NCBI GenBank assembly: GCA_902756345.1
Contig: CACVQR010000001.1
Span: 124,001-188,000 of the forward strand
Direction: 5' to 3'
Source: Fibrobacter succinogenes
Lineage (GTDB): Bacteria; Fibrobacterota; Fibrobacteria; Fibrobacterales; Fibrobacteraceae
Length of the DNA: 64,000 bases
The position numbers and the translations under genes are program-made. Below, one piece after another: positions 40,510 to 63,380 of this stretch. Position 1 is the first letter of the stretch. The number at the start of each line of letters is the position of its first letter. The notes beneath the pieces are model-generated. The model was not told the origin of the DNA. It ran no database searches and saw only the letters and a program-made list of their open reading frames with translations.

Positions 40510-40543
40510 CAAAGGAGATCCCGGCACAAGGCCGGGAGGACAT
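40510..40543. repeat. Palindromic repeat (AAAGGAG...hairpin...GACA type)
   Basis: AAAGGAGAT followed by the stem CCCGGC / GCCGGG and then AGGACATT. It fills the 47-bp gap between the GT4 stop and the next start. The same layout recurs at 58948, 63019, 63060 and 63237. Confidence 0.7.
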
Positions 40544-58049: not shown

Positions 58050-58543
58050 CGAGCCATCCACTCCTTCTCTTTTTCAAGGAACTGGTACAGCATGTATTGC
58101 AGTTCTTGCGGCGACATAGAGTCAGTCACCGTCAAAATGCTCATTCCCTTCGGGGCAACAAGCACAAAAGCCGGAAGCGCATTCAGTTCCCATACATCAA
58201 AATAACAACGTTGCACCGTTTTCTTTTGACCATCGCACATGATGGTATCTTGTGAATCGGCATTGAGCTTAACGGCATAAAAACGCGTGTTCAAAAGCGA
58301 GGCCACCGTGGGGTCGCTGTACACGTTCGCATCCATCACGCGGCAGGGAATGCACCAGTCCGCATACAAATCCACAAAAATCAGCTTCGGCCCCGTCTTC
58401 GCCTTTTCAAGCGCTTCATTGTAGCCCATCCAATGTACCATGGACTTTTTAGCAGCCTTCTTGGCAGGCACCGCATCGTTCAGGGGGGCAGCAAAAGTAA
58501 CCGAAATGCAAAGCGCTACAAGCATCAACAAACGTAAAATCAA
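58046..58543 (-). CDS. Secreted thioredoxin-fold protein
   Basis: This 165-aa protein has a signal peptide (about 1-19) and a thioredoxin-like domain with YADWCIPCRVMDANVY (CIPC active site) and the cis-proline loop ALPAFVLVAP. It resembles DsbD-gamma/thioredoxin_7 proteins that reduce disulfides in the periplasm. The start is TTG at 58543, supported by GGGAGG 7 nt upstream and by overlap with the upstream TGA; the next ATG would cut the signal peptide. Confidence 0.85.
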   Translation of the reverse strand: MILRLLMLVALCISVTFAAPLNDAVPAKKAAKKSMVHWMGYNEALEKAKTGPKLIFVDLYADWCIPCRVMDANVYSDPTVASLLNTRFYAVKLNADSQDTIMCDGQKKTVQRCYFDVWELNALPAFVLVAPKGMSILTVTDSMSPQELQYMLYQFLEKEKEWMAR

Positions 58544-59025
58544 TGTACACCTCCCTTGTGGGCGGGCATCTGGTTTTGCGGCGCCGGAATCTTCGGCAGG
58601 CGCGCCTTTGGACCATTACCCTTTTGAAGAGCCTCTTTTGCATCTACTGTCGCGGCCTGCGGAGGTGTCAGCAGAGAATCGATGCGGGCGTTTACCGCCT
58701 TCTGGAACGGCACCCACTGGCGCTCGTCATTCAAGATTTCGTCGGTTTTGGCGAGGAACTGTTCGCGGGTATAGCCCGCCGCCTTCAAAGCGTCTTGGCG
58801 CACCAGGCGACCCATCGGAGAATCCTTGCCATAAGTAATTTCGGCCACGCGCAGTTCGACAAACAAGTCTACGAACTTCTGGTCGACCGAAACTTCGCCG
58901 CTACAGCCGAAGAGACTTCCACAAAGCGCAAAAGAAATCAAAACGTAAAGGAGATGCCGGGACAAGCCCGGCATGACATGATCGGGGGCCACTATGATGT
59001 TTGCTTCTTTTTCGCTAAACTTCAT
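58540..59025 (-). CDS. Lipoprotein, possibly DUF4296-like, with embedded palindrome
   Basis: This 161-aa protein has a hydrophobic signal and lipobox (CGSLFGCSGE) preceded by an unusually long N-terminal stretch of about 25 residues. It then has a helical domain (about 50-125, KFVDLFVELRVAEITYGKD) and a Lys/Pro/Gln tail. The helical part recalls DUF4296, but this is uncertain. The N-terminal extra codons come from a palindromic repeat (58948-58980). It starts 12 nt behind the ftsY stop. An in-frame ATG at 58974 could also start a normal signal peptide. Confidence 0.75.
   Translation of the reverse strand: MKFSEKEANIIVAPDHVMPGLSRHLLYVLISFALCGSLFGCSGEVSVDQKFVDLFVELRVAEITYGKDSPMGRLVRQDALKAAGYTREQFLAKTDEILNDERQWVPFQKAVNARIDSLLTPPQAATVDAKEALQKGNGPKARLPKIPAPQNQMPAHKGGVH
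58948..58980. repeat. Palindromic repeat inside a reading frame
   Basis: AAAGGAGATGCCGGG, a short loop, CCCGGCATGACATG. It belongs to the same family as the elements at 40510 and 63237. Here it is translated (minus strand, in frame) as part of the lipoprotein N-terminus. Confidence 0.75.
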
Positions 59026-59037
59026 AAGGTCCCGTTA

Positions 59038-59958
59038 CTATTCCTTTTCTTCCAGAGCGTTTTCGAAAAGGCCTTCCACGTATTCGGCCTTGCTGAAAGG
59101 CACCAGCTGGTCAATGCGTTCGCCCATGCCTATCCAGCGGATAGGAATCTGGAGCGAGCTTGCAATCGAGAGCACCGCACCGCCACGGGCCGTACCGTCG
59201 AGCTTGGTCACCACGAGGCCGGTGAGCGGGAAACTCTGGTTGAAAATTTTCGTCTGGTTGATGGTGTTCTGTCCGGTATTGCCGTCGATCACGAGCCACA
59301 TGTCGTGCGGCATGTCGGGACTCACCTTCTTGATCACGCGGACAATCTTCTTGAGTTCTTCCATCAAGTAGTCTTTGTTGTGCAGACGGCCGGCGGTATC
59401 GATAAGGACCACGTCGCAGCCGCGGGCCACTGCAGCATTGCAGGCATCGAACGCCACTGCCGCGGGGTCACTTCCTTCCTGGTGCTTCACGAATTCGGCA
59501 CCACTACGCTCGGCCCAAGTTTCAAGCTGGTCGATGGCTGCAGCGCGGAACGTGTCGCAGGCCGCAATCATCACCTTCTTGCCTTCGCCTTTGAGGCGTG
59601 CGGCAAGCTTACCGATCGTGGTCGTTTTGCCGGCGCCGTTCACGCCAATCACGAGCACCACATGCGGCTTACCCTTAAGTTCAAACGGCGGCGGGTCCTT
59701 CAAGAGGCGTTCCGCTTCGCTTCGCATAATGCCTAGCACCTGTTCGGTCGTGAGCGACTTGCCCAGCGCCTGTTCACGAAGCGCATCGGTCAACAGGAAC
59801 GCCGCTTCGACACCCACGTCGGCCTTGATCAGGTGTTCTTCGAGTTCCTCAAGAGTGTCGTCTGTAATTTTGCCTGCACCGACAATACCCTTGAGTTCGC
59901 CCATCAAGGCGTCGCGGGTCTTGGCTAGGCCACTCTTAATGGCAGAAAAAAGTCCCAT
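59038..59958 (-). CDS. ftsY: Signal recognition particle receptor FtsY
   Basis: This 306-aa SRP-type GTPase has an N domain (about 1-90) and G domain with [25 protein letters not shown] and TKLDG. It has no long acidic A domain. It receives ribosome-nascent chains from Ffh at the membrane. It is followed by a lipoprotein, a thioredoxin and a GT2 gene with tight overlaps. Confidence 0.95.
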
Positions 59959-62587: not shown

Positions 62588-63380
62588 AAATTTTAACAAA
62601 AAAACAAGTTAGTGATTTCGATAAATGCGTAAGGCGAGTGAAACAGGATTGCTTGCAAGCCTATTTCCGAGCCTAGCATTTAGTACGTAGTACAATCCGT
62701 GTGGCCTTTTTAGCATGCATCAAAGGAGGTCCCACCTTGGTGGCCATGCGCACTAAGCACTAAAAGTGCTAAGTGCTGTCCGCCCGGCCTTCGCCGGGAA
62801 GACAACGGGAGTGGCATGCCCAAAGGCGGAAGAAGATAAGTCGTTGAGCGAACATTCGTCGGCCGAAGGCCGAGGCCATGTGAGCTTAAAGCCCCATGCG
62901 TTAAGCTGGGGCTGTGGCGAGAGTGAGGCGAAATCGACTATTCTTTTTTGCGATAGAGCCGAACGGTCTTGATGGCGTGCGGAGCAGGCTGAGCCGGAGC
63001 GCTTTTTTTTCGGACATGAAAAGCTGATGCCGATTTCCATCGGCATGACGCGGGCGGGGAAAGGAGGTGCCGCATCGAGTGCGGCAAGACAGTGAGCAAT
63101 TCATTCCACACGGCTCATTTCTGGAGCCGTGGGCATTTTGAATTTGGGGTCTTAGGGGCAACGCCCCTAGGCGAGAAGGTAGCGGATGCCGCACACGGCA
63201 GAAGCGAGGGAGAGACTTCTCCCTTTTCATGCATCAAAGGAGGTGCCGGGTCTACGCCCGGCATGACAGCGGGCAGAACCCCTCCCCCCCTTCAACATAA
63301 GCATATTTTTTTCAGTTTTATGTTCCACTGCCCATAAAAAATATACATTATGGGTGTAAACCCTTATTTTTAGGACACTT
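62588..63380. other. Gene-free region dense in hairpins
   Basis: About 790 bp without a convincing gene. It holds a 61-nt hairpin (TAAATGC 62622-62628 to GCATTTA 62676-62682, with a CTTGCAAG tip). Further stems are GCACTTAGC-type (62751-62777), CCCGGC/GCCGGG (62782-62798), AGCCCC/GGGGCT (62890-62914), ATGCCGAT/ATCGGCAT (63027-63046), GCCGCA/TGCGGC (63069-63085), CACGGCTC/GAGCCGTG (63108-63132), AGGGGC/GCCCCT (63153-63168) and GCCGGG/CCCGGC (63244-63262). A 17-bp CATGCATCAAAGGAGGT occurs at 62714 and 63228. Minus-strand frames here read palindromes and look spurious. Confidence 0.75.

Follow-up and report, generated by a model that had tools for sequence, protein, structure and literature searches.

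The stretch of DNA analysed here (the window) comprises 64,000 nucleotides from Fibrobacter succinogenes. On its minus strand, following ftsY (59038–59958, identified by Pfam as an SRP54 GTPase), lies an open reading frame of 161 codons counted from its first ATG (58540–59025), which encodes a lipoprotein with the lipobox LFGC, located by eye. No Pfam family was found for the 161-residue protein. Its codon score is 0.24 where the training set averages 0.22, the score being a crude, home-made one trained on the 36 longest non-overlapping reading frames of the window, chosen by length alone. Near the 5′ end of the gene is a palindromic unit of 32 nt, running on the minus strand from 58978 down to 58947 with the sequence TGTC-ATGCCGGG-CTTGT-CCCGGCAT-CTCCTTT, in which the two arms form an 8-bp stem around a 5-nt loop (58954–58974). 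Folded as single-stranded DNA the unit reaches -9.6 kcal/mol (z -5.3), a value that none of 200 shuffles equaled. Its codons (58977–58948) are read in frame as VMPGLSRHLL. The preliminary description of this DNA had placed a translated palindrome at 58948–58980, adding about ten residues to the lipoprotein; the repeat and its translation in an open frame are borne out, while the edges given by BLAST of the locus are 58947 and 58978. At the gathering threshold Rfam provided no family for the repeat, a tRNA being its sole match in the window, and a PinT hit over the locus (E 1.6, 14.3 bits vs. a cut-off of 60) was taken as chance.

We used 136 nt of the locus as BLAST query against 80 genomes of the genus. 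Elsewhere than at the locus, all matches listed (E ≤ 0.001) overlap query positions 68–99, which are the unit; most end near its edges and some reach up to about 19 bases into a flank. Pattern search found three further copies in the window, all on the plus strand and intergenic: at 40511–40542 (stem CCCGGC/GCCGGG), at 63060–63091 (stem GCCGCA/TGCGGC) and at 63236–63268 (33 nt). The first and third had been noticed from the start, at 40510 and 63237, as hairpins lying between genes, which holds, and the second had been missed; no convincing reading frame covers any of the three, and the neighboring frame would reach into the first if started from a GTG at 40527. The last two copies belong to a cluster of hairpins at 62776–63268 that also contains other palindromes, ending GACA or GACG, near 62799 and 63045.

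The genome searched measures 3.36 Mb in 27 contigs, and in it the pattern AAAGGAGRTN{16,30}GACA has 33 matches, compared to one for the reversed control. Omitting L058, which has no matching stem, and three identical duplicates left 29 distinct copies for alignment. With a covariance model at least 62 copies were found in the genome at E ≤ 0.01, 32 of them seeds or their duplicates and 30 neither; the number is a lower bound because the best 150 of 2699 candidates were scored, yielding 70 matches at E ≤ 1, of which the 62 at E ≤ 0.01 were classified. All 80 genomes of the genus have at least one model match at E ≤ 0.01, with copies per genome ranging from at least 1 to at least 99 (median at least 43.5; best ~90 scored candidates, under stricter filters). 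At E ≤ 0.001 there are matches in 76 of the 80, vs. five of 46 other genomes of the class, these five with one to four copies each.

Across the 29 aligned copies, 99.0% of the 203 cells in seven stem pairs are paired, 45 of the 203 have changed on both sides, and the covariation score is 0.543; none of 500 shuffles reached any of these values. Sliding the structure by one to three columns leaves only 36.5–52.7% pairing. Two of five covariation measures fell within the shuffles, namely the number of pairs with a double change (213/500) and the number of further pair types (452/500). Stem pairing is not a product of how copies were selected, since the pattern fixed the ends and not the stem, with the exception of the excluded L058. 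The hairpin is maintained by compensatory change between copies.

Five in-frame start candidates precede the lipobox cysteine: ATG 59025, GTG 58992, ATG 58974, TTG 58965 and TTG 58941. No Shine-Dalgarno-like 4-mer was found upstream of any of the five; such a 4-mer precedes 16 of the 46 first ATGs of kept reading frames in the window, where 6.0 are expected. The second ATG (58972–58974, minus strand) lies within the palindrome and as an alternative start would lead to MPGLSRHLLYVLISFALCGSLFGC, its product having 23 residues before the Cys (MPGLSRHLLYVLISFALCGSLFG-C). It had been suggested that a start at 58974 would leave the repeat mostly outside the coding part; this has the direction inverted for a minus-strand gene, and the stem is translated from either ATG. 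TTG 58965 would cut the unit, and TTG 58941 is the only listed candidate that excludes all of it. The distance from first ATG to Cys is 40 residues in the window and 29 in the close repeat-free type, and in distant repeat-free orthologs it is 35 (L019), 36 (L018), 42 (L021), 22 (L033) and 15 (L036). From these counts the repeat does make the N-terminus longer than in near relatives, as first proposed, yet the idea of an unusually long n-region is only half borne out, since long ones occur without the repeat.

The lipoprotein was matched in 78 of the 80 genomes of the genus, the window's own included; at locus L017 the frame retrieved was that of ftsY instead of the lipoprotein. In the alignment with orthologs, eight of the 13 closest species are without the unit (G005, G078, G079, G057, G063, G030, G010, and G035); it is carried by the window's own genome and by G003, G037, G049, and G020, and in the latter four the same CGT codon precedes it. 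The covariance-model scores of the carriers are 52.8 bits for the window copy, 37.7 for G049, 28.3 for G037, 25.4 for G020 and a weak 15.8 (E 0.078) for G003. The remaining 11 of 16 lipoprotein loci gave no model match at E ≤ 1, and a sixth match was the opposite strand of the G049 copy. The hairpin still folds in G037 (z -2.9) and G049 (z -5.7). In G003 (L008) the stem is broken (z +0.56) and in G020 (L014) a 24-nt piece is nested in the loop (z +0.23), the frame being open in both. The nested piece of G020 (L014:1467–1522) is a second repeat-like sequence that keeps the frame, and a 6-nt in-frame duplication lies upstream; the core of the piece occurs at three sites of the G020 genome including the lipoprotein site (at most two mismatches) and at none in the window's genome. 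The repeat-bearing and repeat-free types align poorly over their hydrophobic cores, which blurs the precise position of the empty site, and the flanks of the window copy have no clear likeness to either type.

On a tree of ftsY from 20 species, in which G078 is absent because our script found no ftsY there, the presence of the repeat takes four changes, at least three of them forced by supported branches. A single origin of presence was not supported on this tree, clustering being no greater than with shuffled labels (170/500). Among repeat-free genes the N-terminal 98 nt are 96.9–100% identical in five species pairs, with just 74.4–89.3% identity in the mature part; such high identity in the N-termini of L010, L015, L108, and L109 points to exchange of the segment or to constraint on its DNA. 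Exchange of N-terminal segments between species seems to have occurred and would partly explain the scattered presence on the ftsY tree. The first base of the unit is C in the four other carriers (CAAGGAG or CAAGAAG), and the window copy, which reads AAAGGAG, lacks this shared C and may therefore be a separate insertion.

We examined where the 62 classified copies lie, a count suggested in the preliminary description, and found eight in convincing genes. By the same codon score, coding sequence makes up about 83.5% of the window, so genes are strongly avoided (binomial P about 4e-34). A copy was called genic when a reading frame with a codon score of at least 0.11 lay over it and the copy did not sit immediately ahead of a more probable start, a decision made by eye; the latter rule removed L049 (score 0.23) and L069, and frames scoring below 0.10 were not counted (e.g., L048, L079, L087, L088, L089, L092, L106). 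The hosts are the lipoprotein, a topB-like topoisomerase (Topoisom_bac), an HrpB-like helicase, an APH-like kinase, an acyltransferase, an Eco57I-like methylase and two Fib_succ_major proteins; the Pfam cut-off is reached in six of the seven other than the lipoprotein, and the seventh (L094) falls slightly below it (31.0 vs. 33.9). All eight genic copies are free of stops, in four combinations of orientation and frame. The unit has no special openness for translation: an average of 4.72 of six frames are open in the 58 full-length copies, compared to 4.54 in shuffles.

Among known repeats the unit resembles the CGTC/TGTC-tagged REPs. Where the source defines this class, one end is an unpaired tag, CGTC (or TGTC, CCTC), followed by a stem of 8–9 bp with A-T at the first and second positions, a loop of 4 or 5 nt and an unpaired tail of 3 nt, mostly CCA; its members are described there as lying mostly between genes, with some in frame inside them, and as having no associated transposase genes, and RPE-4 and RPE-6 of Rickettsia conorii are counted among them (PMC3733652). 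The Fibrobacter unit likewise has the TGTC tag, a stem of about 8 bp, mostly a 5-nt loop and T-A as second pair, lies mostly between genes and in some copies in frame within one, and had no Y1 transposase adjoining it in a search with PF01797. The tag (GACA on the other strand) is present in all 29 aligned copies, but was demanded by the seed pattern, and is found in 61 of the 62 model-found copies, the remaining one having GACG. The second pair is T-A in 29/29 copies, and the first is A-T in 10, G-U in three and unpaired in 16; the window copy has both A-T pairs in its 8-bp stem. Judged by length, 39 of the 62 copies fit a 5-nt loop and nine a 4-nt loop, 10 would have 6 nt and four are partial. 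The tail departs from the 3-nt, mostly CCA form of the class, being the 7-nt CTCCTTT (AAAGGAG on the other strand). Because the tag agrees and the loop mostly does, while the first A-T pair is found in just 10/29 and the tail differs, we call the unit a variant resembling this class and not a member.

The likeness to Rickettsia palindromic elements drawn in the preliminary description is apt in that RPE-4 and RPE-6 have been placed in the tagged class that the Fibrobacter unit resembles (PMC3733652). In both genera a palindromic unit stands in frame inside unrelated genes, as seen here in the eight stop-free genic copies and the repeat-free lipoprotein orthologs. The Rickettsia elements are given as about 95–150 bp long with a conserved peptide (PMC10969869, PMC2267715) and nearly half of the copies as genic (PMC10969869) in the portions of these papers that describe them, unlike the Fibrobacter unit, which has 32 nt, no conserved peptide over its four orientation/frame combinations in eight genic copies, and only 8/62 copies in genes. 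With the GTAG REPs that accompany RAYT genes the unit shares being a short, dispersed, tagged hairpin; it differs in its tag, in a genome without a match to PF01797 (Y1_Tnp) and in the absence of any copy from four PF01797 loci of relatives, so that neither the GTAG tag nor a RAYT gene flanked by the repeat was found. A GTAG-tagged 11-bp hairpin does lie near two PF01797 genes of relatives (L114 near 1355, L115 near 2003), a possible REPtron. The word "fibrobacter" occurs nowhere in the main texts of PMC3733652, PMC12306157, PMC10969869, and PMC2267715, and no description of Fibrobacter palindromic repeats was found in the titles and abstract openings of the open-access papers listed by the searches.

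We conclude that the palindromic unit very probably belongs to a family of REP-like repeats, 32 nt long, TGTC-tagged and spread across the genus, and was inserted in frame and free of stops at the 5′ end of the lipoprotein gene. The insertion would have fallen just ahead of the hydrophobic core of the signal peptide. The unit is presumably a non-autonomous element, mobilized in trans by an enzyme that is encoded elsewhere and may recognize it as a folded single strand, as the covarying stems and invariant ends suggest. Most insertions into genes would be purged by selection; the one in the lipoprotein may have escaped this fate through a suitable length and frame, and through an n-region that could tolerate or even use the added R and H. 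Any role of the hairpin in the lipoprotein gene would be hypothetical; the frame is open where the hairpin has decayed (G003) or is interrupted (G020).

Other accounts of the palindrome can be set against this reading. Residues such as L, R, and H suit an n-region, and a signal peptide might by coincidence, or under demands of the protein, be encoded by a palindrome; this we give practically no credence, being refuted by recurrence of the unit at unrelated sites across the genus and opposed by the eight of 13 close orthologs without it. A second account puts the repeat in the 5′ untranslated part, with the real start downstream and the hairpin as an mRNA control element. In passages of one survey, many REPs at the N-termini of reading frames are considered possibly extragenic and some are suggested to be control elements of mRNA (Di Nocera et al., 2013, PMC3733652), and the want of a Shine-Dalgarno-like 4-mer at every start candidate, where 16/46 first ATGs of the window have one, would fit as well; but the sole listed start beyond the unit, TTG 58941, gives a product (LISFALCGSLFGC) with 12 uncharged residues before the Cys and no positive charge, the hairpin is decayed or interrupted in two relatives with the frame still open, and the same genome has copies deep within coding regions, all of which makes this account improbable. 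We are similarly disinclined to believe that the unit is moved by a RAYT-type Y1 tyrosine transposase occurring in the genus. PF01797, a family that also takes in IS200-type enzymes, has matches in 27 of the 80 genomes, and GGAG followed by a palindrome is reminiscent of REP tags; yet PF01797 has no match in the window's own genome, the four PF01797 loci of relatives hold no copy of the unit (two of them having the GTAG hairpin, of other sequence), and copy number is the same with or without PF01797 (median 44 vs. 40, p = 0.95, the counts being at-least values from the best ~90 scored candidates). As mover, a RAYT-type enzyme was thus unsupported on all three grounds.

More serious, though still unlikely, is the possibility that the window copy came along with its N-terminal segment by recombination or gene conversion and was not inserted in this lineage. 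Segments of this kind seem to move between species, G005 and G010 being 100% identical over the 98 N-terminal nt with 78.4% in the mature part, and G003 and G010 being 96.2% identical in ftsY with 57.6% at the N-terminal segment of the lipoprotein. Against it, no donor for the window flanks appeared among the matches listed from the 80 genomes (E ≤ 0.001), all of which overlap the unit. Within the preferred reading of an in-frame insertion, we regard it as a rather doubtful extension that the repeat was recruited, at least two independent insertions in the same orientation and frame, ahead of the hydrophobic core of this one lipoprotein, now providing a start codon and a basic n-region (MPGL-x-RHLL). 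All five carriers retain the unit's in-frame ATG, the four other than the window's genome share their first base C, the window copy is the most intact of the five (52.8 vs. 15.8–37.7 bits), and the repeat-free type has an inner ATG (ATGGGGGCGCGT) that carriers, by eye, lack ahead of the repeat, each of which would favor recruitment. The upstream ATG is, however, likewise present in 5/5 carriers, and translation of the upstream part is hinted at by the 6-nt in-frame duplication of G020, which lies between that ATG and the repeat.

The range of translated palindromic repeats, of which those of Rickettsia are the best known, would hereby come to include Fibrobacter, in a family with covarying stems, a median of at least 43.5 model matches per genome and no adjoining Y1 transposase where one was sought. 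With a single orthologous region available in the empty, filled, decayed and nested condition, the fate of a repeat-born peptide should be traceable. The mobilizer of CGTC/TGTC repeats, left open in those sections of PMC3733652 that deal with the class, may be approachable in a genus with 80 comparable genomes.

Variation of this sort extends to another host gene, topB, where the model matches in 17 of 30 orthologous loci within the 181-residue stretch searched. The topB linker (L116–L145, e.g., L065:109–2925; 22 of the 30 loci could be parsed) resembles a hot spot, with translated, in-frame repeat-like stretches at two adjacent sites, among them KGDSRSEAGMT from the TGTC-tagged family, NVILSEASAKSKDPD and TKDERRETREL. 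In the Eco57I-like methylase (L102:1126–3030), the TGTC-tagged copy is directly preceded by NVIASEAKQS, which we take to be another repeat-like peptide.
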